From the IMG/VR virus record IMGVR_UViG_3300028423_001190, positions 1-27,053 of that record: a stretch of 27,053 bases of DNA, one strand, 5' to 3'. This document shows positions 317 through 23,251 of this stretch, piece after piece. A model generated the notes under the pieces. That model was not told the origin of the DNA. It did not search any database and saw nothing but the letters and a program-made list of their open reading frames with translations. Within the stretch, counting starts at the first letter, position 1; each line of letters starts with the position of its first letter. The position numbers and the translations under genes are program-made. The stretch is from a virus.

Positions 317-324
317 GATAAATA
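317..324 (+). promoter_or_regulatory. T4-type late promoter (GATAAATA)
   Basis: GATAAATAC matches the T4 late promoter -10 element (TATAAATA), which in T4 is read by the phage sigma factor gp55 with gp33 and the gp45 clamp. It lies about 30 bases before the ATG at 355, in the short gap after the preceding stop. The same NATAAATA motif precedes the three - strand structural genes at the right end, which supports the assignment. No other promoter was seen ahead of the metabolic genes 1527-6661, so they may depend on this late promoter. Confidence 0.72.
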
Positions 325-354
325 CTTTAGTAAGATTAATCTAGGAGCAAATTG

Positions 355-1530
355 ATGGCACTTCAATTTCGTCGTGGCACTGACGCAGAAAGACAAAATA
401 TAACCTTTAAATTAGGCGAGCCTGTTTTTACAACCGATACTGGAAGACTGTATGTGGGCGATGGTAGTACGCAAGGAGGACAATTATTATCTGCTAATTT
501 AATTGACGATGAAAATCCTTTCTTAGGTGGAGATTTAAATCTTAATAATAACAAAATTGTCGGACAAGGCAACATTAACATTACTGGTAATATAGATATT
601 GATGGTTATATCAATGCCACTGGAAACATAAATCTAGGTGACGGTGCAGAAGACAATATTATTGTTGGCGGAAATATAGAATCTAGCCTTATTCCAGGGC
701 AAGATGGCACATATGATTTAGGTGATTCCACTTCAAAATGGCGCTCTGGTTTTTTTGAAGGAATAAGCGTAGATGGAGAAATTTCTGCAAACTCCTTATC
801 TGTGAATAACATATATAATACTGATAGCTCGATTATATATAACGCTTCTACAAATCAATTTACTGCAGATATAATAGGCAGTGTCCTAGCAGAAGACTCT
901 GGCGTAATTATTGATACAAGCACCGGTGACATTAACGCATCAGATATTTTTGCACAAAGCATTAATGCAGAAGAAATTTTTTCTATATTAGAAGGCGATG
1001 TTAGATCATTAAGCGGTACTAAAGCTTACGATTACGAAGCCGAATTATTCCAAGGACAAAGATTAGATCTTTCTAATCTTGATACATCCAAAATCTCTTT
1101 GAGGAAAAAAAATACAAATATCGATTTATCAACTTCTATAGATGATAGAGGACAAATAAATTTTGAACGGAATGACATAAATGGAATTAAAACCGAAGCA
1201 TTTATAGCAGGAGGACCAGATGCTATATATGCAGTCATAGACGACGGAACCTTAAGTTATCCCGAAACTAATGCACTTGTATTTAAGGAGGGCGGAAATC
1301 TTGGGGTAGGCACGTTTAATCCTTCCAATAAACTAGATGTAAATGGCAACGCAAACATAAATGGAACAATTTTAGTATCAGGGTGGATTCAGTTTGGCTC
1401 TTACGATAATACACAAATTGCATCTATTACACCTCAAAATGGTATGGTATATTATAATACTACTGAGCAAAGATTTAGGGGGTACCAAAACGGACAGTGG
1501 ATAAATTTAGATGACGGTACTTTAGCATGA
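355..1530 (+). CDS. Tail fibre-like structural protein with Mtd-like N-terminus
   Basis: This 391-residue virion protein is probably a tail fibre or adhesin. I chose the ATG at 355 over the in-frame TTG at 352 because AGGAG (343-347) is well spaced from it and MALQFRRGT is the usual start of this protein type. Residues 1-42 (QFRRGTDAERQNITFKLGEP, then TDTGRLYVGDG) match the N-terminal fold named after the Bordetella phage major tropism determinant. Repetitive Asn/Gly/Ile-rich segments follow (NINITGNIDIDGYIN), then a DLGDSTSKWR motif seen in many T4-like fibres. The C-terminus has GVGTFNPSNKLDVNGN and a terminal YYNTTEQRFRGYQNGQWINL module. Its TGA overlaps the next ATG (ATGA at 1527-1530), so it is translationally coupled to the desaturase. 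Confidence 0.85.
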   Translation: MALQFRRGTDAERQNITFKLGEPVFTTDTGRLYVGDGSTQGGQLLSANLIDDENPFLGGDLNLNNNKIVGQGNINITGNIDIDGYINATGNINLGDGAEDNIIVGGNIESSLIPGQDGTYDLGDSTSKWRSGFFEGISVDGEISANSLSVNNIYNTDSSIIYNASTNQFTADIIGSVLAEDSGVIIDTSTGDINASDIFAQSINAEEIFSILEGDVRSLSGTKAYDYEAELFQGQRLDLSNLDTSKISLRKKNTNIDLSTSIDDRGQINFERNDINGIKTEAFIAGGPDAIYAVIDDGTLSYPETNALVFKEGGNLGVGTFNPSNKLDVNGNANINGTILVSGWIQFGSYDNTQIASITPQNGMVYYNTTEQRFRGYQNGQWINLDDGTLA

Positions 1531-2219
1531 TTTTATTATTTGGATTCATATTCTACTTTGTAGCAGCTACAATAGGAATAAGTGCTGGTTATCACAGGTA
1601 TTTTACACATAAAAGTTTCAAAACAAACCCATTTATCGAAATAATTATGTTATTTTTTGGCTTACTTTGTGGCGGAAGAAGTGCGATTACATGGTGTGGT
1701 GTTCATAGGATGCATCATGCCGAGTCGGATACAGAGAAGGACCCGCATTCTCCGAAATTCAAAGGTATTTTTAAGGTACTTTTTTCGTTATGGAAAGTAA
1801 AATATATTCCTCCACGTTATTTGAAGGATTTAATTAAAAATCCTAGGGTTGTTTGGTTTCATAAATATGGCAAAATTTTGCATATATTCTATTCGATATT
1901 GTTACTAGTAATAGGAATACAATCTTTTATAATATTTGCTTTTATACCTTTTATTTTCTCATGGATATTTTATGGAATATTAAATTACGCTACCCACAGG
2001 CACAGTGAACCTGTCGATATACCTTATTTAAGTATTGTTGCACCTGGCGAAGGCTGGCATAGACAACATCATCTATATCCAGGTTCCCAACAACTAAACA
2101 AATTTGATCATGTCGGGTGGATAATAAAAAATATTTTAGCAAATGACACAAAAAGACTTACAAGAACTTCTTTTGCAGCAAAGTTTAGCAATCAGAACTC
2201 CGGTTCTGCCAGAAGTTAA
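1527..2219 (+). CDS. Membrane fatty acid (acyl-CoA/acyl-lipid) desaturase
   Basis: A di-iron integral membrane desaturase of the stearoyl-CoA desaturase type, which introduces a double bond into a fatty acyl chain using O2 and electrons from a ferredoxin or cytochrome b5-like donor. All the histidine ligands are visible: HRYFTH (residues 23-28), HRMHH (60-64), NYATH (153-157) and GEGWHRQHH (174-182). Hydrophobic stretches at about 1-20, 37-50 and 117-150 fit membrane segments. At 230 residues it is shorter than the usual roughly 300, mainly through a short N-terminus. It overlaps the fibre gene by 4 bases and the next gene by 77 bases. It may remodel host membrane lipids during infection or act on a lipid-linked product of the neighbouring enzymes; both roles are inferred. 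Confidence 0.93.
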   Translation: MILLFGFIFYFVAATIGISAGYHRYFTHKSFKTNPFIEIIMLFFGLLCGGRSAITWCGVHRMHHAESDTEKDPHSPKFKGIFKVLFSLWKVKYIPPRYLKDLIKNPRVVWFHKYGKILHIFYSILLLVIGIQSFIIFAFIPFIFSWIFYGILNYATHRHSEPVDIPYLSIVAPGEGWHRQHHLYPGSQQLNKFDHVGWIIKNILANDTKRLTRTSFAAKFSNQNSGSARS

Positions 2220-2922
2220 AAAATCTATAGAAAAAATTAATCCAGATTTTGACTCTGTTACTGATTACAAAACCAATATCAAAAAGTGGTTGGAACCAAT
2301 TATTGATTTAAGCAATTTCTATGTTTATCCGATGAATGGTATTACAGAAGGATTAAATTGGTGGTCTGGTAAAAACTGTTACAACATTAAAAAAAATACA
2401 GGTGATTATCAATGGATTGAAAATTCTTATAACAATAAAGAATCTATATGGTATTATAGTTTACCTAGTGCTGTAGACGGAAATTATAAAACATTTAAAA
2501 AAAATACAAAATATGCACTCGACCTGGCATATGTAGGTAGTACAACTGTATCTAAAATAGATATTGATAAGAACTGTCATTATGCTTTTTTTAGTTTAAG
2601 TAAACCGTTTGGTATAAGAAACATACGAACAGGGTGGTATTTTTGCAAAAAACCAGATAAAAGATTAGAAAATCTTGTATACAAAGCAAAATATTATAAT
2701 TATTATGCAAATCAAGTTGCTGAAAAGATTATTTCAAATTTTGACGTAGACTATGTCTATACAAGACTAAGTAAAGAACAACGTAAATTTTGTTCCTTAC
2801 TCAATTTAGATCAAAGCCATAGTGTTTGGCTTGCTACAAGTACAGACGAGATATATTCAAAATTTAGACGGAACAAGAATATTGCCCGATTAAACTTAGC
2901 AGGACTATATACATTATGTTAA
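2143..2922 (+). CDS. Miniature PLP-dependent aminotransferase-like protein (fold type I)
   Basis: This 259-residue protein keeps the landmarks of class I/II aminotransferases in order: YPMNGITEG (62-70, cofactor phosphate region), ALDLAYVGST (125-134, where D127 could bind the PLP nitrogen) and FFSLSKPFG...IRTGW (149-165, where K154 would be the Schiff-base lysine). A late RLNLAGL (from R249) resembles the substrate-carboxylate arginine region. Full-length family members have about 350-400 residues, so both the large and small domains are trimmed. It starts 77 bases inside the desaturase gene, without a clear Shine-Dalgarno sequence. No other ATG upstream of the motifs was seen. Activity is uncertain; it could be a reduced but active enzyme or a degenerate relative. 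It overlaps the next gene by 7 bases. Confidence 0.68.
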   Translation: MTQKDLQELLLQQSLAIRTPVLPEVKKSIEKINPDFDSVTDYKTNIKKWLEPIIDLSNFYVYPMNGITEGLNWWSGKNCYNIKKNTGDYQWIENSYNNKESIWYYSLPSAVDGNYKTFKKNTKYALDLAYVGSTTVSKIDIDKNCHYAFFSLSKPFGIRNIRTGWYFCKKPDKRLENLVYKAKYYNYYANQVAEKIISNFDVDYVYTRLSKEQRKFCSLLNLDQSHSVWLATSTDEIYSKFRRNKNIARLNLAGLYTLC

Positions 2923-3530
2923 AAAAACATTCCCTACCAACAATAGCAGATTTTAATCTAAACATCGATTTAAATAAATTGCAAATAGAAACAGACAAAT
3001 TAGCAAATAAATTTGTAGATGTTGAAACAGCTAACCCAATGCTATGCAATAATCATAGCGAACTGGTGAAAAGTGTTTACGATAATTTTGAACAAATAAA
3101 TCTTACAATGCCAGAAAAAGTTCTTTCTTACACAACAAGTATAAAAGAAAGACTAAAAAGAAAGGAAGAATTTCTGTATAATATTCCAAGTCCGGAGTAC
3201 AAAAAAAGCTATTTTGAAGAAATTATTAATCAATTAAAGGCCAATGCAATTAGAGTAAGAATCACTAAATTAGCACCAGGAAAATTTATCCCCTTTCATG
3301 TAGATTATGATGTTAATTACGCTGTTAGATGCATTTGTCCTATATACAGCGACAACAATGTTATTAACATGTTTAAAAGAAACAATAAGATAGAATCATA
3401 TATACTAGAGTCAGGGCATGCTTACTTTCTAAACATTGGATATCCGCATGCTGTTGTAAACATGAGCAACAATCCTAGAATTGCACTAATGTTTAGTCTA
3501 GACAGTACACAAGACATAAAAAATCTATGA
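2916..3530 (+). CDS. Asp/Asn beta-hydroxylase-like 2OG-Fe(II) oxygenase
   Basis: A 204-residue cupin-fold oxygenase candidate. The iron triad is visible: H128 and D130 in PFHVDYD, and H178 in YPHAVVN. R138 (after the strand following HxD) and R188 (NNPRIAL) are candidates for binding 2-oxoglutarate. The layout PGKFIPFHVD...GYPHAVVNMSNNPRIAL resembles the aspartyl/asparaginyl beta-hydroxylase family, which hydroxylates side chains of peptides or small molecules. The first 100 residues are helical and not recognised. ATG 2916 overlaps the previous stop (ATGTTAA) and its own stop overlaps the next ATG. The substrate is unknown. Confidence 0.78.
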   Translation: MLKKHSLPTIADFNLNIDLNKLQIETDKLANKFVDVETANPMLCNNHSELVKSVYDNFEQINLTMPEKVLSYTTSIKERLKRKEEFLYNIPSPEYKKSYFEEIINQLKANAIRVRITKLAPGKFIPFHVDYDVNYAVRCICPIYSDNNVINMFKRNNKIESYILESGHAYFLNIGYPHAVVNMSNNPRIALMFSLDSTQDIKNL

Positions 3531-4006
3531 TTGAATGGTATATCGGGCCTATAGAAAAATATACAAAACAAATCAATAAACTTTTTTATCAAAATAAAAA
3601 TCATAAGCTGTGGCAAAATTATCTTATAGAAAAGAATAAACTATTTGAACACACAATATTTGCGAGGATAGGCTTTGTAAATAACAAGGTAATATACTAT
3701 AGTGCCGGTATAGAAAGACCTGAGTATAATAATTCAATAAGAATTATGAGTAGACATACAAGATCTAGAACTTACAATTTTGGCACAAAAAAACAAGATC
3801 TTGCAAGAGGATTAGAAACACTAGACATTAGTGTTGAATATGCTCAAAATCTTAGCTATACAAATATATGGGCATCGAGAGAATTTAATAATAATTTATT
3901 GAAATGGTTTAAAAAGAATAGCAAATTTGATTGGAAATTATCCTATGAAAAAATGCACTACGGCGGTTATCAACATATATTAAGTTTAGAGCAAAAAAAT
4001 GAATAA
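3527..4006 (+). CDS. Conserved hypothetical protein, possibly GNAT-like
   Basis: A 159-residue soluble protein. The middle (MSRHTRSRTYNFGTKKQDLARGLETLDISVEYAQNL, given here in parts: MSRHTRSRTY about 84-93; GLETLDISVEYA about 105-116) followed by a YTNIWASRE strand and a helix has the alternating strand/helix pattern of small acyltransferases. I cannot identify a clear acetyl-CoA pyrophosphate loop, so this is a weak suggestion. It starts at the ATGA overlap with the oxygenase gene before it and overlaps the oxygenase gene after it by 8 bases. Its position between two 2OG oxygenases suggests a role in the same pathway. Function unknown. Confidence 0.75.
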   Translation: MIEWYIGPIEKYTKQINKLFYQNKNHKLWQNYLIEKNKLFEHTIFARIGFVNNKVIYYSAGIERPEYNNSIRIMSRHTRSRTYNFGTKKQDLARGLETLDISVEYAQNLSYTNIWASREFNNNLLKWFKKNSKFDWKLSYEKMHYGGYQHILSLEQKNE

Positions 4007-4553
4007 AGATGATATCTATTTTACATTTGACATCCAATATAATAAGGAAGAGTTGGCTGAAGTTTTTTATGACTTAGATAGAAAAGACAAATGGGACGGC
4101 TATATTCCTCCAAAATATGATACGACTAAATATAGTATCAACAATTTTACAGCAGTTACATATAGATATTATCAAGATATAGATGATATAGACATTATAA
4201 AAAAAATTAGAGAAAAAATAAATTTTCCATACTTAAATTATGAATATACTCAACTATTAAAGTTTCCTCCTTTTAATGGGCCCACTATTCATCGAGACAG
4301 AGAGAGACAAACTGCAGTCCTTTTGCCTGTTTATACTTACGAAATTTACGAACCTATAAAATTTTATGATAATAAAACTAAAAAAGAACTATTTGAAGTA
4401 GATTATAAGGATTGCGGAATTGTTTTTGATGCTCAACATTTACATGCAGTGAAAAATAAGGCTCATAACAGATACAGCTTACAGTTCGACTTGCGTGAAA
4501 AATTTAGTGAAGTATACAAAAAATTTAAAGAAGGCGAATTCCTAAAATGCTAA
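3999..4553 (+). CDS. 2OG-Fe(II) oxygenase-like protein
   Basis: A 184-residue oxygenase candidate. The HxD iron motif is at TIHRDRERQTAV (H98, D100), and the distal histidine is in FDAQHLHAVKN (H149; H147 is the alternative). R158 in HNRYSLQFDL fits the 2-oxoglutarate-binding arginine. The arrangement HRD...HAVKN...R is that of short phage and bacterial oxygenases that act on peptides or small molecules. It differs in sequence from the other four oxygenases in this window, so it is not a recent local duplicate. Start and stop overlap both neighbours. Substrate not predictable. Confidence 0.75.
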   Translation: MNKDDIYFTFDIQYNKEELAEVFYDLDRKDKWDGYIPPKYDTTKYSINNFTAVTYRYYQDIDDIDIIKKIREKINFPYLNYEYTQLLKFPPFNGPTIHRDRERQTAVLLPVYTYEIYEPIKFYDNKTKKELFEVDYKDCGIVFDAQHLHAVKNKAHNRYSLQFDLREKFSEVYKKFKEGEFLKC

Positions 4554-6661
4554 ATGTATATGGAATACAACTAACTTCAGATCAATATATAACACTTCCG
4601 GTAAGTATAGGAACCCTTTGGTCATATATTGAATCAAAAAAAGAAATAATTAATCATTTTTGTTTTTGCGGTTGGGCTGTTTATCATCCTAAGAACGATA
4701 CTGTGTTAAGCCTTTTGCCAAACTTGTACAAAAAAGGCCGGCCCGACGTAATTTTAGTAAGTTTATACATGTGGAATAGAAATCGGTCAAATAAAATTAC
4801 TAAAGCCATAAAAGAATTATATCCTGATGTAAAAATAATTGTAGGAGGCAATGATGTTCCGCAAAATTCTGAAAAATTCAACAAGTTCATAACAGACAAT
4901 CCTCAATATGATTATTATGTTCATAGCGAAGGCGAAATTGCTTTGGAAATGATATTGAAAGAAATTCTATTTGAAAGCGAAGGTGTAGAATTAGAATTTA
5001 ATACAGATTGCTTTACAAAAGTAAGTAATGGAAAAATTGTAAATAGACACAAAAAAAGACAGTATTTAAATCATAAAGTTGATTTAGATTTTCCAAGTGC
5101 TGCGGAGTTAGGTTTATACGACGATCTAATAAAAAGCTTACCAACAGATTTACAAATACAAGGTGTTATTGAAACAAATAGGGGATGTCCGTATAGCTGC
5201 ACATTTTGTGACTGGGGATTAGAAGAAAAATTAAGAAGGTTCAGTCTTAAACGGATTAAAAAAGAAATCGACTGGATGATAGAAAATGTCCACGAGATAA
5301 TGTTTGCTGATGCTAATTTTGGAATTTGTAAAAGAGATATAGATATAGCAAAATATATTGTTAAAGCCAAACACTCTAATCCTAACACTCCGTTTCATAG
5401 TACTGCAATAACATATGCAAAAAACAATAAGGAGCGAGTATTAGAGATAGCCGAAATTTTAGAAAGATTTGACTTTAGTAGAAATGGAGCAACTTTTGCT
5501 CTTCAAAGTTTGAATCCTGCTACATTAATCTCTATTAAAAGAGATAACATGCATATTGCGAGAGATTTTGAATGGATTGCAGAAAATTTTATCAAAAAAG
5601 GAATTCCTTATTACCATGAAATGATAATGGGCCTTCCATTAGAAACTAAAGATACATTCCTTCAAGGGCTTAGTAAGTTACTTAGGTATAATCCTATAGA
5701 TATTAACATTTATAAGTTAGGATATTTAGAAAATAGTGAAATTGCGTTAATGGATCATTCTGATAAGTATGATATGAAATGGACAAAATTCGAACACGGT
5801 CCTAGCTTATATGAAGACGAAAAAGAATATACATATCTAATAAGAAGCACAAATACTATTAGCAAAAACGATATGAAATACATAAAACATATAAGAGATT
5901 TAATTCAAATATTATGGTTAGGAAAAACAATATTTTATGTTGGTCGATTTTTGCAGCAGGAATTAGCAATACAAGCATGTGATTTAATAGAATCATTAGT
6001 AGAGTATGGGTTTAGTGAAGGGGATAAACATTTATGGGAAAAATTATTTCTTAGTAAAGAAGACTCATTAAGAGACGAAAGGTATAAGAATGCTCCTTTA
6101 TATTTCTCTTTTGGCCAGGACAGGTTAAAATATTTACGTTATACAAATGCTTGGTTATACATACACGGAAAAAAATCGACTAAAGAACGTTTTTATACTG
6201 ATTTAAAAAATTTCTTAATAAAAAAATATGATTTGCAAAAAAACATAATAGAAGATTTAGTTACTTTTAACAAAAATATCTGTGTCGACGGAGAACAAAC
6301 AGAATTTAAACACAAATTTACTACACAATACAACTGGATTGAATATTTTATATCAAAAAAGTTGAAAAAAATAGAAACTACATATAACTGTGAAATTAAT
6401 TTAGCAGGAAGCACAAAGGTTAAAAAATCTGAAGTAGATACTAAAACATTTTTATATTATATAGCAGGAGGACACGAGTTTACATTCAATAAACAAAATG
6501 CTTTTGATTATTCTGAAGGCTATTATTCTAATAAGGAAGTAGGAAGTGTACCGTTTATAAGCAAAATGGGAATGTTTTACAATTCTAACAAATACTTTAG
6601 CACTTCCGACGATATAATAAAGATTATCATGAAAGAAAAGTTACTACTAGAAAATTTATGA
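4547..6661 (+). CDS. B12-binding-type radical SAM enzyme
   Basis: A 704-residue protein. Residues about 1-140 form a Rossmann-like domain (DVILVSLYMW, then DVKIIVGGNDV, YVHSEGE) typical of cobalamin-binding radical SAM enzymes. The usual DxHxxG cobalt-ligand motif is not visible, so binding could be base-off without a histidine or lost. The radical SAM core follows, with CPYSCTFCDWG carrying C214, C218 and C221 (CxxxCxxC) for the 4Fe-4S cluster. Characterised relatives often methylate unactivated carbon or phosphorus, or rearrange rings. A helical C-terminal region of about 250 residues is unassigned. AAGAAGG about 12 bases upstream is a good ribosome binding site. It is the last gene of the + strand run and faces the - strand run with a one-base gap. 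Confidence 0.88.
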   Translation: MLNVYGIQLTSDQYITLPVSIGTLWSYIESKKEIINHFCFCGWAVYHPKNDTVLSLLPNLYKKGRPDVILVSLYMWNRNRSNKITKAIKELYPDVKIIVGGNDVPQNSEKFNKFITDNPQYDYYVHSEGEIALEMILKEILFESEGVELEFNTDCFTKVSNGKIVNRHKKRQYLNHKVDLDFPSAAELGLYDDLIKSLPTDLQIQGVIETNRGCPYSCTFCDWGLEEKLRRFSLKRIKKEIDWMIENVHEIMFADANFGICKRDIDIAKYIVKAKHSNPNTPFHSTAITYAKNNKERVLEIAEILERFDFSRNGATFALQSLNPATLISIKRDNMHIARDFEWIAENFIKKGIPYYHEMIMGLPLETKDTFLQGLSKLLRYNPIDINIYKLGYLENSEIALMDHSDKYDMKWTKFEHGPSLYEDEKEYTYLIRSTNTISKNDMKYIKHIRDLIQILWLGKTIFYVGRFLQQELAIQACDLIESLVEYGFSEGDKHLWEKLFLSKEDSLRDERYKNAPLYFSFGQDRLKYLRYTNAWLYIHGKKSTKERFYTDLKNFLIKKYDLQKNIIEDLVTFNKNICVDGEQTEFKHKFTTQYNWIEYFISKKLKKIETTYNCEINLAGSTKVKKSEVDTKTFLYYIAGGHEFTFNKQNAFDYSEGYYSNKEVGSVPFISKMGMFYNSNKYFSTSDDIIKIIMKEKLLLENL

Positions 6662-6662
6662 A

Positions 6663-7448
6663 TTACCATTCATAATTAGTACCACAATTAACTCTGTATA
6701 ATAATCGTGATGTAGCATCAGGCGTTGGCGGGCGGCGATGCTGTGTAAATATACTTTCGGTTATAAAAAGATCCCCTATATCCCATTTATGCTTATAGAC
6801 CTCTATATTTTCAAATTTAGATTTTAATAGATTATAAAAATACTCATTGTCGGACGTGCCAAATATTTGATCACAAAACAACCACGGATAAAACAATCCT
6901 TCGTCTCCATAAGGCGATTTAACAATCAATTTTTTATAAGAGGACTGTGCCTTTACAATATCTTTTAGATCGTTTTGAAAGACTTTCTGATTAAACGAAA
7001 ACAAGCCCATAGCTTTCTTTAATTCATTTTTTTCGTCATACGTCAAAGACTCTAAAACTAAATTATTTGATAGATACTCTTGTGTACCATGTTCTACATC
7101 TTCGATACCTTGAAACATAATAAAAGGCTTAGGATTCTTCATTATACAATTATCACTATGCCACCCGACTTCTGAAGTCTTTCCTAAACGTCCTATAGGA
7201 TTTCCGTTTTTATCAACTCTGCCAGTTATTAACCCTATATGTTTACATTCTGGATGACACCTTGGTCTAGAATCGTCTAAATTTCCTAACAACTTTGCAA
7301 AGCTTAAGATTGTGTTTATATCTGTATCTAACTTCTTAAACAGCAAAAAACCATATTTCCATATTAGTCTTTCTAGATACTCTCCATCATTTTTTATAGA
7401 AAAATTTTTAATTTCTGCTCCAAAAGGCAATAATTCTTTTATAATCAT
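6663..7448 (-). CDS. TauD/TfdA-family 2OG-Fe(II) dioxygenase
   Basis: A 261-residue member of the TauD/TfdA/gamma-butyrobetaine dioxygenase superfamily, which oxidises small molecules (taurine, carnitine precursors, amino acids) with O2 and 2-oxoglutarate. The iron ligands are H97 and D99 in VGWHSDN and H237 in IFTQHRRP. R248 (SRLLYRVN) fits the 2-oxoglutarate-binding arginine. Length is near normal for the family. It is the last gene of the - strand operon and ends one base from the stop of the convergent radical SAM gene. It follows the preceding gene after 7 bases. Its intact HxD contrasts with the TauD-like protein at 8499-9419. Confidence 0.87.
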   Translation of the reverse strand: MIIKELLPFGAEIKNFSIKNDGEYLERLIWKYGFLLFKKLDTDINTILSFAKLLGNLDDSRPRCHPECKHIGLITGRVDKNGNPIGRLGKTSEVGWHSDNCIMKNPKPFIMFQGIEDVEHGTQEYLSNNLVLESLTYDEKNELKKAMGLFSFNQKVFQNDLKDIVKAQSSYKKLIVKSPYGDEGLFYPWLFCDQIFGTSDNEYFYNLLKSKFENIEVYKHKWDIGDLFITESIFTQHRRPPTPDATSRLLYRVNCGTNYEW

Positions 7449-7455
7449 ATTTTTA

Positions 7456-8028
7456 CTATCCAGTTATAACTTCTGCAACTAAATGTAATCGATTTTCCAT
7501 ACTACTATTGACAGCAGTGTGGTAAACTTGGGTATTTACATAGTACCATTTTCCTTCGTGTAGATGCTGGACCTTATCTTGGATCACCATAAAACATCCA
7601 ATTTGTGTCTTCATAGGAAAATGTATTCTATCAGTGTAATCAACATGCCACGATAAACATGTTTTTGGTTTACTATTCATTATTCGAAGCCTGCCAATAT
7701 TGTATTTTTTCTTTAAAATATTAAACGCATCTTCAAATAAAGTACCTTTAAATGGTGAGGCGATTATAGAGAAGTCAGATTCTTTCAAAGGAATGTCTCT
7801 TTTTGGCACCTGTATATTACCCTCTTCGTCTCTATATGAATTGTTCCAATCGTGGGTAAGACTACCATGTCCAGCAAATATATCATCGGGGCGATCAGCA
7901 ATTGTATTAACACAAATTTGATTTGGTCTATCCTTGTTCCACCAAATATCTCCTCTCTGGATAAGGCGGTTATACTCATCCAGCAGATTTAAAAAAGGTA
8001 ATGTATAAAGTTCTTCAACGTATTCCAT
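7456..8028 (-). CDS. Asp/Asn beta-hydroxylase-like 2OG-Fe(II) oxygenase
   Basis: A 190-residue protein with the oxygenase triad H128/D130 (CLSWHVDYTD) and H170 (QVYHTAVN), plus R180 (ENRLHLVAEV) as the likely 2-oxoglutarate anchor. The pattern WHVD...VYHTAVNSS...RLHLV is that of Asp/Asn beta-hydroxylase-like oxygenases and parallels the + strand protein at 2916-3530 (PFHVD...YPHAVVNMS...RIAL). The two are distant relatives on opposite strands. The N-terminal half contains Trp/Asp-rich segments (RGDIWWNKDRPNQ) that may form the substrate pocket. It starts 1 base after the SDR stop, so it is probably coupled. Confidence 0.8.
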   Translation of the reverse strand: MEYVEELYTLPFLNLLDEYNRLIQRGDIWWNKDRPNQICVNTIADRPDDIFAGHGSLTHDWNNSYRDEEGNIQVPKRDIPLKESDFSIIASPFKGTLFEDAFNILKKKYNIGRLRIMNSKPKTCLSWHVDYTDRIHFPMKTQIGCFMVIQDKVQHLHEGKWYYVNTQVYHTAVNSSMENRLHLVAEVITG

Positions 8029-8029
8029 T

Positions 8030-8458
8030 CTAAGGAACCACTGTAATATCTTTAACCCTATAAGGTTGTTTTAAAATCCAATCAATAACATTTATGCAAT
8101 ATGATATTGGCATTTTTTCTTCTTTGATATGAGACACTCGAGGACTATCGAAATATCCAAATTTAATAATAGTCGTATTTATACCTTGATAAAAAAGCTG
8201 TTCGTTTGCTTTTTCTAGTGCAGCTTTTTCAATTGCATATATGTGAGGTCTTTTTTTAATGCCGTCAGAGGAATTAGACCCTATGTTAATTATGCGACAG
8301 TTTAGATTGGCAGCTTCGTATAATAATTTTACCTGATCAAAATTTTCATGCTTGCAATTTATAAAAGTGTCACACGAATATAAATCGTTGCAGTTACCAT
8401 ATTTTTGAGACAAATAATAACCAAGTCCTCTCTTTGTTCCAGTAATATAAAAATGCAT
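8030..8458 (-). CDS. Miniature short-chain dehydrogenase/reductase (SDR)
   Basis: Only 142 residues against about 250 for a classical SDR, yet the defining motifs remain: TGTKRGLG (residues 6-13, TGxxxGxG nucleotide-binding loop), IINIGSNSS (57-64, strand ending in catalytic serine candidates) and YAIEK (74-78, the YxxxK catalytic pair). The segment that normally lies between the nucleotide loop and the catalytic serine, including the NNAG motif, is greatly shortened, so the Rossmann fold must be compact. An NAD(P)(H)-dependent oxidation or reduction of a carbonyl or alcohol is the expected role. It lies between two oxygenases in the operon, which fits a multi-step oxidation pathway. Whether it is active is unproven. 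Confidence 0.75.
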   Translation of the reverse strand: MHFYITGTKRGLGYYLSQKYGNCNDLYSCDTFINCKHENFDQVKLLYEAANLNCRIINIGSNSSDGIKKRPHIYAIEKAALEKANEQLFYQGINTTIIKFGYFDSPRVSHIKEEKMPISYCINVIDWILKQPYRVKDITVVP

Positions 8459-8498
8459 ATAATATTATCTCTTATTTAACAATTAACATAGGCTATCT

Positions 8499-9419: not shown

Positions 9420-9461
9420 TTAATATTTTACATTCTTTTTAAGGCAAATTTAATTTCAATT

Positions 9462-12183: not shown

Positions 12184-12191
12184 ACTGGATC

Positions 12192-15352: not shown

Positions 15353-16019
15353 TTCTCATAAATCTTGTGTATTGTTCTAAGTCTAAATCGCCTTCATATA
15401 AAACTGTTGACATAGGTGTTTGGTTTCTAAAATCTTTCAAATTATTCACACAATTTACGTGTTCTTTAATATCGTAAAAATTATTACTTTGTAGGATAAC
15501 AATAGTATTATTAGGTATATTTGCATACCATTTATTAAAATCTTCTATGTGCTCACAACTTGTGTTGATAATAGTATCTGGGTTTTCGGTTAATTCTACT
15601 AAAGAACTATTAGCTCTATAGGTTACATGAGTAGCAGGATATTCCATTTCTAGTATATCTAAAGTACTTGCTTTAAATTTCCATCCGTCCTTAACCCATG
15701 ATTTATTAATAGATTCAGCTATTTCAGCACAATTAGTGTCGATATCAAAACTTCTAATTACTTTAAATTTTTTTGAAACTTGTTCAAACATCATGCCAGC
15801 AAGTGTTCCATACCAGCCACCGCAAATAAAAACTACGCCCAAATTATCAGGTAAATTATCGATTAACCACTGTTTGCTTTTTATCTGTCCCCAAGACAAA
15901 CAATCTGACAAATCTACTTCGTATTGATCGATTGTATTCCTAATATTTTTAAGTAAATTAGACTGTGTTAATAGATGTAACCTACCGAAAATATCTTTAT
16001 CGTCTTGCCAATTTATCAT
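15330..16019 (-). CDS. Class I SAM-dependent methyltransferase-like protein
   Basis: A 229-residue protein with a Rossmann methyltransferase pattern: VVFICGGWYGTLAGMM (62-77, motif I, Gly-rich), FKVIRSFDIDTNC (85-97, where D92 or D94 would bind the SAM ribose), and DTIINTSCEHIEDFNKW (from about 138, motif IV-like) followed by an NNTIVILQSNNF strand. Length is normal. Expected role: methyl transfer to O, N or C of a small molecule, glycan or protein; the target cannot be read from sequence. It sits between a GT-A-like gene and a radical SAM gene, overlapping both by 23 bases, so it probably belongs to the same tailoring pathway. Confidence 0.8.
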   Translation of the reverse strand: MINWQDDKDIFGRLHLLTQSNLLKNIRNTIDQYEVDLSDCLSWGQIKSKQWLIDNLPDNLGVVFICGGWYGTLAGMMFEQVSKKFKVIRSFDIDTNCAEIAESINKSWVKDGWKFKASTLDILEMEYPATHVTYRANSSLVELTENPDTIINTSCEHIEDFNKWYANIPNNTIVILQSNNFYDIKEHVNCVNNLKDFRNQTPMSTVLYEGDLDLEQYTRFMRIGYKSEK

Positions 16020-17325
16020 ATTGTTCCTTTAACCAATCGAAGTCGTTAATCTTAAGTAATTTACATGGATTATCTTTGTTAATCTCGCCGAATTCTTTAC
16101 CAGCTTTTGCACCTTTAATTGCGTCTATACCAAAAGGTTTGTTCGTGCCAACATTACACCATGTGTCTAATCTCTTTTTAGTTTCTTGATCTTTTTGTCT
16201 GTCTATAACGTTACTTGCTAATTTTGCACATTCTCTAAATCCCGACTTCCAAGCATTAAACGAATCTGTATTAAATGCAGTTATATTTGAAATTTCTTTG
16301 ATAGGCTTGAACTTATTGGATATTGATGTAGTCATGTCTGGTTTACTAGTATCCATATTAATTGTCATGGCGGTAGGTAACAGTTTTACACCTCCGTAAC
16401 CGTATATTAATCCGTTTACGGGATTTTGCGATCTGCAGACATGAACTGTATCTCTTTCCCATCTAGGTACTTGGTAATCAAAATCAAAATCATCTTTGAT
16501 TTGTGCGTCTCCATCTACTACCCAAAACATCTCTGTTTTTACTTTTTTAGCAGCTTCAATATGAGCATTGTGTATACCTTTTACACCATGAACTCTTTTT
16601 GTATTAGGGAATCTACTTTTTAGCTTTTCGAAATTTTGTTCCGCGTTTGGTTCGTTATAGCTAATAAAAACAATATCAAATGCTTTTGGCCAAGATGCTT
16701 GTGTGTCAACTTCTTTCTTTTGTGTGAAAAATCTATATTCGAATTCTTTTTTTGTAATTGGACTGTTTGTATTATGTAGACTTATTCCATCGTAAAATTT
16801 GCCATTAAGTAACACATGAGGATACTTTTCGTACATAGGTGCTTGATATGAAAAATCAAAATTAGAATTTATTTTTACATCACTAGGAATAACCCAGAAG
16901 AATTCTGTGGTTGTTTTCTCAAGTGCGTTTAGGTATTCTTCATATGTGTCAATGTAGAATCTATCATAAGATACAGGAGTAGAAGCAACTATGTCAACTT
17001 CTTTCTTTTGTGTGAAAAATCTATATTCGAATTCTTTTTCAGTTGGCAGATTATTTTTTGGTATTAAACAAACACCATCATAATAATCTCCGTTACTAAA
17101 AACATGAACTACATCCTGGCTCCAATCATCGGGTTCGTATGAAAAATCAAAATCTTCATTTGTTTGTATATCGTCAAGTACTGCCCAAAAGAATCTAGTT
17201 AAACACTTTCGTTTTGCATCTAGCAAACTGGATGCTCTTTTTGCGTTAGGAAATTGTTCTTTTAGTTTTTGCCAATTTTCATTTGCATTGGGTTCTCCAT
17301 ATGAAAGAAATATAATATCGTACAT
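15997..17325 (-). CDS. GT-A-like protein with internal triplicated module
   Basis: A 442-residue protein built from three related modules at about residues 1-111, 112-208 and 216-325, then a C-terminal part. Modules 1 and 3 open with IIFLSYGEPNANEN and IVFISYNEPNAEQN; all three contain FFW/MFW...DFDF. Only module 3 keeps a DxD-like DGD (261-263), typical of metal-dependent GT-A glycosyltransferases; the others read LDD and PSD. Module 3 plus the C-terminus corresponds to the whole 300-residue protein at 20086-20988. The phrase EFEYRFFTQKKEVD occurs twice, 96 residues apart, encoded by identical DNA. I infer a nucleotide-sugar-binding or glycosyltransferase-like enzyme with two added, probably non-catalytic, modules. 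No named family is certain. Confidence 0.78.
   Translation of the reverse strand: MYDIIFLSYGEPNANENWQKLKEQFPNAKRASSLLDAKRKCLTRFFWAVLDDIQTNEDFDFSYEPDDWSQDVVHVFSNGDYYDGVCLIPKNNLPTEKEFEYRFFTQKKEVDIVASTPVSYDRFYIDTYEEYLNALEKTTTEFFWVIPSDVKINSNFDFSYQAPMYEKYPHVLLNGKFYDGISLHNTNSPITKKEFEYRFFTQKKEVDTQASWPKAFDIVFISYNEPNAEQNFEKLKSRFPNTKRVHGVKGIHNAHIEAAKKVKTEMFWVVDGDAQIKDDFDFDYQVPRWERDTVHVCRSQNPVNGLIYGYGGVKLLPTAMTINMDTSKPDMTTSISNKFKPIKEISNITAFNTDSFNAWKSGFRECAKLASNVIDRQKDQETKKRLDTWCNVGTNKPFGIDAIKGAKAGKEFGEINKDNPCKLLKINDFDWLKEQYDKLARR
16704..16751. repeat. 48-base exact direct repeat, copy A
   Basis: This 48-base stretch inside the GT-A-like gene is identical to 16992-17039. The copies are 288 bases apart (96 codons), so the repeat preserves the frame and both encode EFEYRFFTQKKEVD and flanking residues. 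Identity at third codon positions points to a recent duplication or gene conversion, while the rest of the modules has diverged. Confidence 0.93.
16992..17039. repeat. 48-base exact direct repeat, copy B
   Basis: Second copy of the exact repeat at 16704-16751, in module 1 of the GT-A-like protein. Unequal recombination between the copies would delete or add one 96-residue module in frame. Confidence 0.93.
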
Positions 17326-18701: not shown

Positions 18702-20086
18702 TCAAAATAAAAATCTTCCATTTCAGGAAAAGTATCTAAGAAATTTGTACCACGTCTTTTGTCATGTTCGTCAACAAATTTAACAAAATCTTGTCTATTC
18801 GTTACTTCGTCTTGCTTGCCTTTATAATAATTGTCTTTCAAGATAGAATATATTCTCTGCATTCTGTTTATTTCGTGCTCGTAAAATCCGTTACCACATA
18901 GAGGAGGCCAATAAGCATGCTCTTTGTTTTGATACATGTATGTAACCTGATCTTCTACTTTCTTTACGTATTCTCGATTTAGAACAAAGATAGTTTGGTG
19001 AGGCGGCCAACGCAGATACGATACATCAAGGCTCACCGGATTTCGACGTTCTGGCCCTGTGTTAAATTCCTGTCTTAGTTTAAGAAAATCTCTCATAAAT
19101 TCTCTAAAACTAGTAACACTTAGAGCGTTATAGGTTGCCATATTTGTAAGTTTAGAGTCAGGTATTTCATCAAGTATTCTATAACAGTTATCGAACCATT
19201 TGTTATAGTCTAAGCCGTTGCGTATATACTCTGCCTTTTGGCCATGGGCATCGCAACTGGTATAAATCTTAAATTCTCGAATTAACCCTTCTCCTTGTAT
19301 TCTTTTAACTTTTTCTATCAGTTTGTCGATCAACGGATTAGGTACCACAAGATTGGAATTAATACTGAGTTCGAGATCAGTATTAGGATTTTCTATAATA
19401 TAATCTAGGACTTTAAAAGTGTGGCGAGTCATTAACGGTTCCCCGCCTGTTATTCTAAAAGTGTGTAGATCAGGATATAAATCGGGCCACCACTGCCAAA
19501 ATGCTTCTACATAAGGATTATTTTCTCTTTCTGGTATTGGTGTTTTTTCCTGTTGTTTTATCCAGTCAAGGTTGTTGAATCTAGTAGAAGTAGGATATCC
19601 GCCGTGCTGTTTTATCTCTTCCATCCAGGTAGAACTTACTTCAGGAGAGCAGTACGAACACTTGAAATTACAAGAATTAGAAAAAGATACTTCAAGATAA
19701 GAAGGATTGATGTTTTTTGTACTGCCTGCTTCGATAATTTCTTTTTCATTATCTGCCCAAGGTTGAATGCTCTTTGTAATTCTATCTGAATAAACATTTT
19801 CACTATCTTTTGAGTCTTCGACTCGCCAACAGTAATCACATTCATTAGGACGTTCTCCCTTAAGCATTAGTTCGCGTTGTTGTTTTTTATACGCTGTGTT
19901 ATGCAGAGCAGAAGGATCTTTTTCAACCTCTTCTAGAGGAATCTTGTGCGGTGCAGGATGATGGCAAGAGTGTGTAAAGCCATTATGGAGGTGCAGGGTT
20001 ACCTGCTTCCACTTTGCAAAACACATCGAAGGAGATATTTTGTTTAATTTTTGTCTAAAAATTTCAAGATCATTTCTAATATCCAT
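18686..20086 (-). CDS. Twitch-type radical SAM enzyme, tandem copy 1
   Basis: A 466-residue paralogue of the 17325-18701 product. The core motif is CNFKCSYC (C139, C143, C146) and ITGGEPLMT (about 212-220) binds SAM. N-terminal cysteines C22 (MCFAKW), C41 (HSCHHP) and C83/C86 (ECDYCW) match those of the paralogue one for one. Both proteins share PYVEAFW/PYIEAFW before the GGEP strand, a single-residue-spaced HLH motif and the same C-terminal fold. Tandem retention of two diverged copies suggests two related substrates or two positions on one substrate. ATG 20084-20086 shares one base with the upstream stop (TAATG), so the two are tightly coupled to the GT-A-like gene. Confidence 0.9.
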   Translation of the reverse strand: MDIRNDLEIFRQKLNKISPSMCFAKWKQVTLHLHNGFTHSCHHPAPHKIPLEEVEKDPSALHNTAYKKQQRELMLKGERPNECDYCWRVEDSKDSENVYSDRITKSIQPWADNEKEIIEAGSTKNINPSYLEVSFSNSCNFKCSYCSPEVSSTWMEEIKQHGGYPTSTRFNNLDWIKQQEKTPIPERENNPYVEAFWQWWPDLYPDLHTFRITGGEPLMTRHTFKVLDYIIENPNTDLELSINSNLVVPNPLIDKLIEKVKRIQGEGLIREFKIYTSCDAHGQKAEYIRNGLDYNKWFDNCYRILDEIPDSKLTNMATYNALSVTSFREFMRDFLKLRQEFNTGPERRNPVSLDVSYLRWPPHQTIFVLNREYVKKVEDQVTYMYQNKEHAYWPPLCGNGFYEHEINRMQRIYSILKDNYYKGKQDEVTNRQDFVKFVDEHDKRRGTNFLDTFPEMEDFYFECKNL

Positions 20087-20988
20087 TATTTTAATCTTTT
20101 AAATGTTCTCGGCGTATTTCTATAAACAGATTTAAAAAATCTGTTACCTGATTCGTCAAGTGTTGAAATATCAAGACCAAGCTTTTGACTTAGAGATTCG
20201 CCTAACTCTTGAATCTTTTGTTGTAGATTGCTATTACTAGTTTTAGAATAGTAATTTTTCCATTGTTCAGTTAGGTACTCAAAATCTCTCACTTGTGTAT
20301 AGTCCCAATCCGTACAATTAGTCAAATAACAGCCTTCCCTTGCTCCATATATACTCCATAAGCCGTTTTCTACGTCGGCACCTATCGAACACCATATTTT
20401 TAACCGTTCTAGATTCTGCCACCATACTGTTTTGATGTCTTTGACTGGTGATCCTTGATTGAGGCTCATCTTTACACCTTCTCTGAACCCTGCTCTGAAC
20501 GCTTGAAAGGCAGATGCGTTAGTATAGGAGGTAGAAAAGTTTTCATTGAATTGATAGTACAAGTCATCGAAACAAAATTCTACTAAAGAACGACTGTCTT
20601 TTCCGGTCGATGCTTCGTGAGTGCGCATATTTTGAACAAAATTCTTGTTCCATAATTTTAAACCGCCGTTGCCGTACATCAAGTTATTGACGTGTATTTT
20701 GCCACACCATGAAAAGACATGATCATGCGTTAAGCCTAGCTCGTCTAAGTCAATTTCCTGTACTAAGAATTTAGGATCTATCTGATTGTCACCGTCTACT
20801 GTAACAAAGTGATCTGTTTCTGATAAATCGGCACAGGCTTTGTGCGCTGCATCGGACCCTTTTACTCCGTGAACTCGTTTTGCCCAAGGGATCTTTTGAC
20901 AGAGGTCAGCGTAATTTTTTTCTGCGTTTGGTTCGTCGTAGGATAGAAATATAATATCTTGTTCTATAATTCTAATTTTATCAGTCAT
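20086..20988 (-). CDS. GT-A-like glycosyltransferase family protein
   Basis: A 300-residue protein starting IIEQDIIFLSYDEPNAEKN and continuing AKRVHGVKGSDAAHKAC, then FVTVDGDNQIDP, where D65-G66-D67 is a DxD-like metal and nucleotide-sugar site. LMYGNGGLKLWN and an AFQAFRAGFREGVKMS helix follow. The same series of motifs forms module 3 and the C-terminus of the 15997-17325 protein. The GT-A reading rests on the N-terminal strand, the helix and the DGD; no specific GT family is recognised. It directly precedes the twitch radical SAM pair, so the order here is GT, rSAM, rSAM, GT. It may act on the same acceptor as those enzymes (inference). Confidence 0.75.
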   Translation of the reverse strand: MTDKIRIIEQDIIFLSYDEPNAEKNYADLCQKIPWAKRVHGVKGSDAAHKACADLSETDHFVTVDGDNQIDPKFLVQEIDLDELGLTHDHVFSWCGKIHVNNLMYGNGGLKLWNKNFVQNMRTHEASTGKDSRSLVEFCFDDLYYQFNENFSTSYTNASAFQAFRAGFREGVKMSLNQGSPVKDIKTVWWQNLERLKIWCSIGADVENGLWSIYGAREGCYLTNCTDWDYTQVRDFEYLTEQWKNYYSKTSNSNLQQKIQELGESLSQKLGLDISTLDESGNRFFKSVYRNTPRTFKRLK

Positions 20989-21556
20989 TTATAACTCTTT
21001 TAAGCTGGTATGTGTCAAATTTCCTAGCTGTAAAAACACTTAAGGGAATGTCTTTGTATTCGAAATCTGCCGTAAAAGGCAATACTGCATAATTATCACT
21101 AAATGCCTCAGAAAAATCTACAGAAAGAGTTTTATAAAGAATATTAGGATCATGCTTTTTAGTAACAGCAAAATACAAAACTTGATTTAGTCCAACATTG
21201 TTTTTTCTTAGATTGTTTTTTAGTCGAGATCCAATCTTAATTTTCCAGCATTTTTCAAAAATATTGTGTTCTATTAGAATGTCAGGATCATTTTCCTTAT
21301 TTTCTGGTATTTCATAGATAAAATCATTTACATCTGATCCATCAAATGTTTGGATAAACTTGTGTTGTAGTTCTAACTGTTTTGTTTTTGCATTATATTC
21401 TACTCTATAATTCCTTCGAGGCTCTTTCCCGTCAAGCAAAGCTGTGATTTCTGATAGCTCAACAGGAATAGAATTGTCTTTGTCTTGTTTAGGACTTATT
21501 CCTATAACTTTACCTGTTTTGTCCTCAAAATTCACATACATTATAGCTTCAGGCAT
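20981..21556 (-). CDS. Conserved hypothetical protein
   Basis: A 191-residue soluble protein of unknown function. It begins MPEAIMYVNFEDKTGKVIGISPKQ and looks mostly beta-stranded (YRVEYNAKTKQLELQH; CWKIKIGSR; VLYFAVTKKHDPNILYKTLSVDF), ending in a SVFTARKFDTYQL strand. This resembles small phage structural or accessory proteins more than an enzyme. It has one cysteine and no metal or nucleotide motif. It overlaps the neighbouring genes by 16 and 8 bases within the early operon. Possibilities are a virion or tail-assembly protein, or a binding partner of the glycosyltransferase-like enzymes. Confidence 0.8.
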   Translation of the reverse strand: MPEAIMYVNFEDKTGKVIGISPKQDKDNSIPVELSEITALLDGKEPRRNYRVEYNAKTKQLELQHKFIQTFDGSDVNDFIYEIPENKENDPDILIEHNIFEKCWKIKIGSRLKNNLRKNNVGLNQVLYFAVTKKHDPNILYKTLSVDFSEAFSDNYAVLPFTADFEYKDIPLSVFTARKFDTYQLKRVIND

Positions 21557-22371
21557 TGTTCATACTTTCCTATTATGTCATCTGTGCAAAAATCTTTCTC
21601 TGTGTAATGAAAAACTGTGTCCTGTCTATGATTTCCTATTTTTAACTGCAGATCTTCTGCGAGATATACTCCTACTCGATCTTGCCATCTTGTCGTTGAG
21701 TTTCGCCAGTTCTGAATCTGAGATTTCATATGCACTATCTGCGGTAAATCGTTTGCGTGATTAGAAATATCGGTTTCGCAATCTAGAATTTTTGCTACAA
21801 TTGCTGTTGTAATGTCCATAGAAGGCTGTTTTGGGTAGTGTTTTCGACAAAATTCACCATAGAATAGCTCCCAATTATTAGACACCATCTCTGTCCACTC
21901 GTAAAATTCGTGTGTGAAGTTCCCTTTTTTAAAATAAAACAAACAGTTATAAAAGTTGGGCAAATTATTCTCTGTAAAGGCTTTTCTATAATAATCGGAT
22001 GTGACTTTTTCTTTTCGATATGTAAAAACTTCTGTAGGAAAGTACATATTGTAATTTTCAGCAAAATTCCAGAAATAATCTAGGTTTTCCAGAACTAAGA
22101 CGTCCGAATCTAATACGACAGTTTCAAAATAAGGCGTTGCATGATATATCTTCCACCGATTATCTGTACACAGACCTGTTTCTGACGGTTTATACCAAGG
22201 AATTTCTATTATTTTGTCAAATATAGACGCATATTTCCTAGAGACCTTGGTATTTGTTATCAAACTAACTGGATATTCATTTTTTGATGCCTGTAAGCTT
22301 AATGCTGCAAGGTATGCTTGCTTGACATAGTCAGTGCCCTCTGCATAAATGACAAATCCTTTATAGTTCAT
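21541..22371 (-). CDS. Glycosyltransferase-like protein (GT8-like, DSD motif)
   Basis: A 276-residue protein with the layout of GT-A enzymes of the GT8 kind: an N-terminal strand GFVIYAEGTDYVKQAYLAA, then SLITNTKV, and YFETVVLDSDVLVLENLD, where D88-S89-D90 is the metal/nucleotide-sugar DxD. The C-terminal third contains PSMDITTAIVAKILDCE and an HFxE-like HYTEKDF. It is a diverged paralogue of the 22361-23251 protein; both start with a GFVIYA/GVLVFA strand, a YVKQA/YIKQA helix and a VLDxDxxI strand. It probably transfers a sugar to a cell-surface or virion acceptor. Overlaps of 11 and 16 bases tie it into the operon. Confidence 0.77.
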   Translation of the reverse strand: MNYKGFVIYAEGTDYVKQAYLAALSLQASKNEYPVSLITNTKVSRKYASIFDKIIEIPWYKPSETGLCTDNRWKIYHATPYFETVVLDSDVLVLENLDYFWNFAENYNMYFPTEVFTYRKEKVTSDYYRKAFTENNLPNFYNCLFYFKKGNFTHEFYEWTEMVSNNWELFYGEFCRKHYPKQPSMDITTAIVAKILDCETDISNHANDLPQIVHMKSQIQNWRNSTTRWQDRVGVYLAEDLQLKIGNHRQDTVFHYTEKDFCTDDIIGKYEQCLKL

Positions 22372-23251
22372 CTAAGCACCTATTTAAACTGAACTTATTC
22401 ATAAAGTGTAAATTAAGATCTTTTACTCGTAAAGGAGTATATTCGCCGTCATACATGGGTTTTTCAAGCAAAACCAAAAGAGAATCATCATTTATATTCC
22501 ATAATATACACTTGTCTGAACAAAAATACAGTGTTCCTGGAGGCGTTTTTGCAAAATCACCTGATTGATATCCGTTCATTATGTGTATTGCTATAGAAAA
22601 TGCATAATCATTACGAAAATAAGGCGAATTTATTTGGAAAATATTGTTATAGTGCTGCCAATTTTCTTGAATATGCTGAACTAAATCAAAAAACAATTTG
22701 TTTTCTTGGCTTTTTCTAAAAAACACACAAGTTGCCCAATAAAAATCTACCGAAGTGTCTGAAATTCTTACGAAATCATCGCCTCTATCTATGTCGACTA
22801 GTTCAATCGAATTCTTATAAAGCAATAAATCATGACTCTGATCGAAACATTTCAGCCATTCTGAGTTGGAAATTATGATGTCAGTATCTAAGACCAATGT
22901 CTCGTCGTAAGGAGATAATTCGTACGCAAGAGCTCTGGATTGATTCTTCCATTCTAATTGTTTATTAACCAGTGACCCGTCCCAGAATTTTTTTTGGCTT
23001 ACTAATTCTTTTGCACAAAGAACAGAGTCGTTGTCTAGATGTTCAGAATCCCATACCAGCCCTATTACATTGTCGAACATGTCTTGCCAGTCGAGATATT
23101 GAGTTTTTAGAAAAGATACACTGTCTGTTACTACCGTGGTAGGCAAATTGAGATATTTTTTTGCTCGTTCAGCAACGAAACGTGCCTGTTTAATGTAGTC
23201 TATTTGTGAATTGTTCCTTGCAAAAACTAAAACGCCTTTATGCTGATTCAT
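22361..23251 (-). CDS. Glycosyltransferase-like protein (DTD motif)
   Basis: A 296-residue relative of the 21541-22371 protein. The N-terminal GVLVFARNNSQIDYIKQARF and LPTTVVTDSV are followed by a second nucleotide-binding strand, DETLVLDTDIIISNSEW, with D122-T123-D124 as the DxD. DFYWATCVFFRKS and NDYAFSIAIHIM match the acceptor-side segments of the downstream paralogue. Length is typical of short GT-A enzymes. It is the second gene of the operon, overlapping the conserved small protein gene by 14 bases. The sugar donor and acceptor are unknown. Confidence 0.76.
   Translation of the reverse strand: MNQHKGVLVFARNNSQIDYIKQARFVAERAKKYLNLPTTVVTDSVSFLKTQYLDWQDMFDNVIGLVWDSEHLDNDSVLCAKELVSQKKFWDGSLVNKQLEWKNQSRALAYELSPYDETLVLDTDIIISNSEWLKCFDQSHDLLLYKNSIELVDIDRGDDFVRISDTSVDFYWATCVFFRKSQENKLFFDLVQHIQENWQHYNNIFQINSPYFRNDYAFSIAIHIMNGYQSGDFAKTPPGTLYFCSDKCILWNINDDSLLVLLEKPMYDGEYTPLRVKDLNLHFMNKFSLNRCLDEL

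Follow-up and report, generated by a model that had tools for sequence, protein, structure and literature searches.

Radical SAM, oxygenase and glycosyltransferase-like genes behind tail-fibre genes of a putative T4-like aquatic phage: a conserved core and apparently exchangeable cargo

The 27,053-base virus record IMGVR_UViG_3300028423_001190, analysed in full and referred to here as the window (coding density 98.7%), raises the question of what a dense set of radical S-adenosylmethionine (SAM) proteins, 2-oxoglutarate (2OG) oxygenases and glycosyltransferase (GT)-like proteins is doing between structural genes of a phage. A sequence-only reading had taken the genes at 1527-23251 as one cassette, building or decorating one molecule. 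Its coordinates and counts are essentially right, and structural genes do flank the set, an Mtd_N fibre gene on the left and a Peptidase_G2-type fibre gene on the right. The set is not one unit. Two convergent gene runs, 352-6661 rightward and 26995-6663 leftward, meet at 6661/6663, each opening with one of these fibre genes; the window ends inside fibre modules. Start and stop codons overlap through most of both runs, as do the desaturase start and the fibre-gene stop in the left one, genes otherwise nearly abut, and all intergenic gaps are 60 nt or shorter. We tentatively favour a reading in which a fibre-coupled core and a varying cargo, encoded in the host-recognition island of a T4-like phage, modify virion adhesins at a late stage, probably by adding a glycan.

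The core is made up by the fibre, two GT8-like genes, a small-protein gene, a GT-A-like gene and a radical SAM gene of the N-twitch type. To avoid circularity, relatives were scanned with the fibre-module gene at 23238 as anchor instead of the N-twitch gene. The 57 loci with at least 7 kb of downstream sequence fall into 23 clusters at 80% nucleotide identity; the N-twitch gene is found in all 57, and the order GT8, GT8, small protein, GT, N-twitch is kept in 55. Open reading frames (ORFs) were called mechanically, families in relatives assigned with our own hidden Markov models (HMMs), and locus sets anchored on chosen genes. An N-twitch match above the curated cut-off resides in 15 of 16 parent records of relatives sampled, and the T4-type capsid gene Gp23 in nine of the ten larger than 150 kb. 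A-type iron-sulphur (Fe-S) carriers were detected in six and IscU in three of the 16 records, including that of locus L098, a Gp23-bearing record of 281,658 bases with 19 radical SAM hits; such genes could mature the Fe-S enzymes of some relatives. No functional study of a phage N-twitch radical SAM enzyme was found in the open-access literature. An enzyme for which we found no known function is kept at a fixed place behind tail-fibre genes in a broad, uncultured group of T4-like aquatic phages.

Each of the four fibre genes (352, 23655, 24561 and 25511) is preceded, at a distance of about 25-30 nt, by NATAAATA, which we take to be the core of the T4-type late promoter; the four remaining window copies are intragenic. 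ATAAATA is rarer in the window than shuffling expects (8 observed vs. 20 expected). In relatives the motif precedes 47% and 45% of the members of two fibre families. It was found upstream of none of the N-twitch genes (0/185 and 0/115, 300 in all), GT genes (0/96, 0/95 and 0/93, 284 in all) or small-protein genes (0/63) of the same relatives. Motif and gene order together suggest that transcription from the promoters of the fibre genes continues into the enzyme genes, and that the enzymes are probably made late, together with the fibres.

The region would be a tail-fibre, or host-recognition, island belonging to a T4-like aquatic phage, its fibre genes standing at the head of two late operons that continue into tailoring enzymes. 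The right-operon module (two GT8-like proteins, the small beta protein, a GT-A-like protein and at least one N-twitch enzyme) would be made simultaneously with the fibres and would act in the cytoplasm to modify fibre proteins or adhesins, probably by means of an unusual glycan; GTs would add sugars and radical SAM enzymes would change C-H bonds in the sugar or the protein, in an order of steps that is conjectural. Fibre-coupled late expression points to virion adhesins. A cytoplasmic acceptor is argued by the composition of the window: Pfam and profile searches and transmembrane prediction revealed no flippase, polymerase, ligase or lipid-carrier transferase among its products. The same absence speaks against the main rival, remodelling of the host envelope (lipopolysaccharide O-chain, core, lipid A acyl chains), by which superinfection would be prevented or trapped progeny freed. 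GTs would then work on lipid-linked precursors in the cytoplasm, and acyl chains would be the target of the desaturase and of the Asp_Arg_Hydrox enzymes, members of the LpxO family. The desaturase is membrane-embedded, a gene annotated PagP lies near a radical SAM cluster in Vibrio phage K566, and GTs in the host-recognition clusters of pelagimyophages, GT8 being the commonest family, have been interpreted in this way in print (PMC7029224). Fibre-coupled expression would come late for exclusion, however, and a large lineage, presumably with differing host surfaces, keeps the same core; we hold envelope remodelling to be a serious but rather unlikely rival. A gtr-like serotype-conversion cassette was also considered and ruled out, neither its polytopic GT nor its membrane flippase being found in the window, where transmembrane segments are predicted for the desaturase alone.

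The left-operon enzymes and a second radical SAM block are mobile, interchangeable cargo, the core being shared by the whole lineage. The left block (desaturase, pyridoxal phosphate (PLP) enzyme, hydroxylase, GNAT-like protein, 2OG oxygenase and putative B12-binding radical SAM protein) is found in order in the relatives' loci L091 and L092, again behind an Mtd_N fibre and with another gene at the GNAT position; it recurs with changes in L089 and L090. The SAR11 phage Mosig features the desaturase and PLP genes with a hydroxylase nearby, L173 the PLP and B12-binding radical SAM genes plus a hydroxylase. A near-complete counterpart of the right radical SAM block (15997-9462) is present in L173, with an inserted QueC-like gene. 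Cargo recurs in about four other independent contexts, Mosig included, and co-occurrence statistics are therefore modest. Associations above chance were found over 108 deduplicated clusters for methyltransferase and repeat GT genes (p 8e-11), methyltransferase and nitroreductase (6e-6), and desaturase and hydroxylase (2e-5), all values being approximate given the anchored sampling, mechanical ORFs and own HMMs. The expected co-travel holds for subsets, not for the whole set, and a single pathway of all genes is ruled out because core and cargo have different distributions: in place of the one molecule proposed earlier there are a fixed lineage-wide core and interchangeable cargo, and one joint product is unproven.

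At the opposite extreme, the island might be a hot spot gathering unrelated auxiliary genes, each with a role of its own. Cargo differs strongly between relatives, and single-gene homologues occur without the rest in many phages, those of the B12-binding radical SAM gene in more than 160 viral stretches. Such a collection is unlikely, block gene order being kept across divergent contexts, core order being fixed, and the associations above, approximate as they are, exceeding chance. Degeneration was looked for and rejected, since no internal stops interrupt the radical SAM genes and selection is purifying where measurable. In the reading that we favour, oxygenases, desaturase, PLP enzyme, B12-binding enzyme and further radical SAM enzymes would be swappable cargo varying the final structure, akin to antigenic variation.

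Cargo of relatives includes a carbamoyltransferase, a nucleoside diphosphate (NDP)-sugar epimerase, a StrB1-like amidinotransferase and a sulfotransferase-like protein, and the mix of GT, epimerase, carbamoyl-, amidino-, sulfo-, methyl- and acetyl-transfer functions speaks for sugar decoration. In a wider marine-phage operon, a related PLP enzyme and B12-binding radical SAM protein are associated with a StrB1-like amidinotransferase, hydroxylase-like proteins and an NDP-sugar epimerase, beside neck and sheath genes. At L114 (3994-11791) the operon encodes a GT-B-like protein, a PLP enzyme, the amidinotransferase (PDB 1bwd, 1.6e-84), two hydroxylase-like proteins, an epimerase and a TokK-like B12-binding radical SAM protein; it recurs in many contigs (similar loci among L104-L148). 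A PstS-like phosphate-binding gene lies a few kb from the left block in L089 and L090.

Table 1. Features of the window (TM, transmembrane; pLDDT, predicted local distance difference test; SDR, short-chain dehydrogenase/reductase)
Feature	Position	Strand	Evidence or remark
Late-promoter-like NATAAATA	317..324	+	27 nt before left fibre gene
Tail fibre with Mtd_N domain, head of left operon	352..1530	+	Pfam Mtd_N 7e-12; same position in L091/L092
FA_desaturase-type membrane di-iron enzyme	1527..2219	+	Pfam 7.5e-14; three His boxes; PDB acyl-CoA desaturase 6e-12; TM segments; 4-nt overlap with fibre gene
Small PLP aminotransferase-like enzyme	2143..2922	+	Invariant SLSK154, D127, R162; Mosig homologue annotated aminotransferase
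Asp/Asn beta-hydroxylase-type 2OG oxygenase	2916..3530	+	Pfam PF05118 7e-6; 69% nt identity to Mosig gene
GNAT-like protein (weak)	3527..4006	+	No Pfam match; relative in L089 at 3e-50
2OG oxygenase-like, HxD...H	3999..4553	+	Motif; no Pfam match; 57%-identical orthologue in L091
Putative B12-binding radical SAM C-methyltransferase-like (TokK/KedN5/CysS group)	4547..6661	+	Pfam radical SAM; PDB TokK 4e-55
TauD-family 2OG oxygenase, HxD	6663..7448	-	Pfam 1.6e-17
Asp/Asn beta-hydroxylase-type 2OG oxygenase	7456..8028	-	Pfam 5e-10
Mini SDR-like protein, motif only	8030..8458	-	No Pfam match; weak relative in L089
TauD-family protein, conserved HxN variant	8499..9419	-	Pfam 1.5e-17; HxN in relatives
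Radical SAM with N-terminal SPASM-like Cys domain	9462..10478	-	63% identical in L173
Unknown family, paralogue of 11332..12183	10475..11335	-	Alignment; orthologue in L173
Unknown family, predicted cyclophilin-like barrel with helical insert	11332..12183	-	Model pLDDT 83; Z 8.9 to cyclophilins over 127 residues, 3.1 A
Stand-alone Cys-rich domain, homologous to N-terminus of 13245-14195	12192..12560	-	
Radical SAM without N-terminal Cys-rich domain	12553..13248	-	
Radical SAM with N-terminal Cys-rich domain	13245..14195	-	
N-twitch-like radical SAM	14180..15352	-	153 bits vs. NF033640 cut-off 170; not filed in family
Class-I methyltransferase-like protein	15330..16019	-	Weak PDB profile matches to class-I methyltransferase/spermidine-synthase folds; linked to repeat GT gene, p 8e-11
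GT-A-like protein with repeated domain	15997..17325	-	Pfam GT2 sub-threshold; same family as 20086-20988
N-twitch radical SAM NF033640	17325..18701	-	312 bits, above curated cut-off 170
N-twitch radical SAM NF033640	18686..20086	-	350 bits, above curated cut-off 170
GT-A-like protein, invariant DGDN	20086..20988	-	Alignment
Small two-domain beta protein	20981..21556	-	Position conserved; model pLDDT 85; FnIII-like, Z only up to 5
GT8-like glycosyltransferase	21541..22371	-	DxD invariant; weak glycogenin match
GT8-like glycosyltransferase	22361..23251	-	DxD invariant; weak glycogenin match
Conserved small protein of fibre module	23238..23597	-	
Fibre/structural protein	23655..24500	-	Late-promoter motif just upstream (24523-24530)
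Fibre/structural protein, paralogue of 23655..24500	24561..25481	-	Late-promoter motif just upstream (25508-25515)
Tail fibre with Peptidase_G2-type domain, head of right operon	25511..26995	-	Late-promoter motif just upstream (27020-27027)

The seven radical SAM proteins counted from sequence were all recovered as open, intact matches to Pfam PF04055 (E 6e-8 to 4e-16); CxxxCxxC is present in all, GGEP or a close variant in six. In the N-twitch protein at 18686-20086, C22, C41, C83 and C86 are invariant in 15 sequences, as are C139, C143 and C146, so that both the CxxxCxxC motif and the N-terminal auxiliary-cluster cysteines expected of NF033640 are found. This protein has more than 100 viral relatives; viral scans with 13248-14195 and 9465-10478 as queries yielded only two loci each. 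A search of 50,697 phage records returned no match for the core GT proteins or for one N-twitch protein, and for the other N-twitch protein distant matches only, nearly all in Vibrio phages. Bacterial N-twitch relatives (L178-L255) reside mostly in Bdellovibrionota metagenome-assembled genomes (MAGs), in up to 8 copies per locus of about 21 kb; a few of these loci, e.g. L194 and L224, resemble phage contigs binned with bacteria. The stand-alone domain at 12192-12560 corresponds to the N-terminus of the neighbouring radical SAM protein at 13245-14195, so that one enzyme architecture occurs here also in split form.

SPASM/twitch-like domains, found in several of these proteins, are typical of peptide maturases, and a dedicated small peptide might be matured here as in clusters for ribosomally synthesized and post-translationally modified peptides. 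The window gaps are too short for a precursor-sized ORF, none of its products is a peptidase or transporter, and a virion protein acting as 'precursor' would merge with the adhesin reading; a cluster of this kind, which we ruled out, is scarcely credible. Radical SAM, PLP, GNAT and GT enzymes are used by phages for DNA base hypermodification, relatives carry QueC-like genes, and some of the window radical SAM proteins weakly match QueE-like PHROGs. The matched part consists of generic radical SAM motifs, however, no recognised nucleotide- or DNA-targeting enzyme was found in the window, and a late fibre operon is an unlikely location, which makes base hypermodification very improbable.

The closest matches of the putative B12-binding protein (4547-6661) are natural-product methylases, TokK and CysS; TokK C-methylates carbapenem side chains. 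It scores 175.5 bits against NCBIfam KedN5, below the curated cut-off of 700, and is not filed as KedN5; its match to the B12-binding domain PF02310 reaches 30.9 bits (cut-off 32.1). A diffusible, antibiotic-like product made during infection would suit this kinship, and also the QueC-like genes, carbamoyltransferases and amidinotransferases of relatives. We consider it improbable: the window has neither a scaffold-building enzyme (nonribosomal peptide synthetase, polyketide synthase, carbapenam synthase) nor an exporter, and fibre-gene coupling gives no reason for such a product.

Five 2OG oxygenases, one altered, had been proposed. Pfam recognises two Asp_Arg_Hydrox and two TauD proteins, the fifth (3999-4553) being assigned by its HxD...H motif and its orthologue in L091. 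The altered protein (8499-9419) has HxN in place of HxD, as have relatives in L173 (13151-14020), Mosig and L008 (18017-18826); since L173 and Mosig share it, this is a conserved variant, not decay. The di-iron desaturase is borne out by Pfam, its His boxes and a PDB match, the PLP enzyme by residues K154, D127 and R162, invariant across distant relatives despite the absence of a Pfam match. The SDR is recognised by motif only, and the methyltransferase, probably of class I, by weak profile matches. The cyclophilin-like match of 11332-12183 is suggestive only; no Foldseek match at E <0.001 was obtained for this protein or for 20981-21556. In the adjacent paralogues at 10475-12183 the helical insert carries conserved His/Asn residues, and a carbamoyltransferase is associated in relatives (p 4e-6).

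All four GT-like proteins carry the predicted DxD motif, with sub-threshold Pfam matches for two and a weak glycogenin match for the GT8-like pair. PDB profile searches with the GT-A-like family, and with the 'clu3' family of relatives, gave nothing usable; that clu3 may be a GT-B is only our reading of one motif, TEKIWKPIA. The small beta protein (20981-21556) is possibly a virion component, an adhesin part or an acceptor. The paralogous fibre proteins at 23655-24500 and 24561-25481 have a near-identical stretch in common (SSQRGSFWNDLIEN...WQIEAREQTSSSISFRITLVNDGPE), pointing to recent duplication or gene conversion.

Several observations weigh against modification of virion adhesins. The N-twitch family is plentiful in Bdellovibrionota MAGs outside a phage context, and its function is therefore not intrinsically virion-related; no fibre was recognised near the left block of L089 and L090; neither a desaturase nor acyl-type hydroxylases fit easily with a glycan. 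GT assignments depend on DxD motifs and sub-threshold profile matches, late timing is read from a motif and not from transcripts, and the chemistry is proposed from genes, substrate, product and virion glycan all being putative. Among the products guessed earlier, a surface glycan or virion protein is still the best candidate, a lipid or a peptide being less likely because there is one desaturase only and no precursor peptide candidate. A broader claim, that N-twitch enzymes and dedicated GTs form a lineage-wide virion-maturation system putting radical-dependent modifications (sugars or amino acids) on adhesins, with swappable oxidative cargo diversifying the surface, is possible but doubtful. 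Should N-twitch enzymes act on adhesins, virion maturation and the evolution of phage host range would both involve radical chemistry. The conserved core (two GT8-like proteins, one small protein, one GT-A-like protein, one radical SAM enzyme) is a small, testable gene set.

We know of no radical SAM or oxygenase chemistry in the virion glycosylation of mycobacteriophages. There, glycans are placed on virion proteins, as proposed here, the targets being capsid and tail tube (Freeman et al. 2023, as cited in PMC12619734). The pelagimyophage host-recognition cluster (PMC7029224), situated between VrlC and the neck gene gp14, is a hypervariable island with fibres, Mtd-type domains, GTs and radical SAM gene cassettes; the window is likewise a variable island with tail fibres, GTs and radical SAM cassettes, and differs in the fixed GT/N-twitch core, the promoter coupling and the oxidative block, not described in the portion of that text available to us. 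The T4-like Campylobacter phages CP220 and CPt10 have a module, thought to swap en bloc, with five radical SAM and two NDP-sugar-transferase-fold genes beside baseplate genes (PMC2853527); a glycine amidinotransferase-like gene is found there and no amidinotransferase among the window products, no 2OG oxygenases are annotated there, and its radical SAM sequences are only distantly related to ours. The 183 kb T4-like marine phage TARA_ERS488813_N000010 has 12 radical SAM genes and an A-type Fe-S carrier (PMC5332604); compared by description only, it is treated as a case of Fe-S metabolism, with no fibre or glycan link stated in the part of the source consulted. The earlier statement that no phage pathway of this kind is described thus stands for the chemistry, within the open-access literature; radical SAM-rich T4-like phages and variable fibre islands are already known. 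New, as far as found in that literature, are the fixed fibre/GT/N-twitch core, the shared promoters and the co-travelling oxidative block. Isolated on SAR11, Pelagibacter phage Mosig EXVC030M (MT647606) carries relatives of the cargo: no N-twitch/GT core family was detected in the stretch examined of its variable region, which has a carbamoyltransferase and a DegT-type aminotransferase instead, but desaturase, PLP enzyme, hydroxylase, HxN TauD protein, methyltransferase, radical SAM protein and nitroreductase lie, as in the window, in one fibre-adjoining island.

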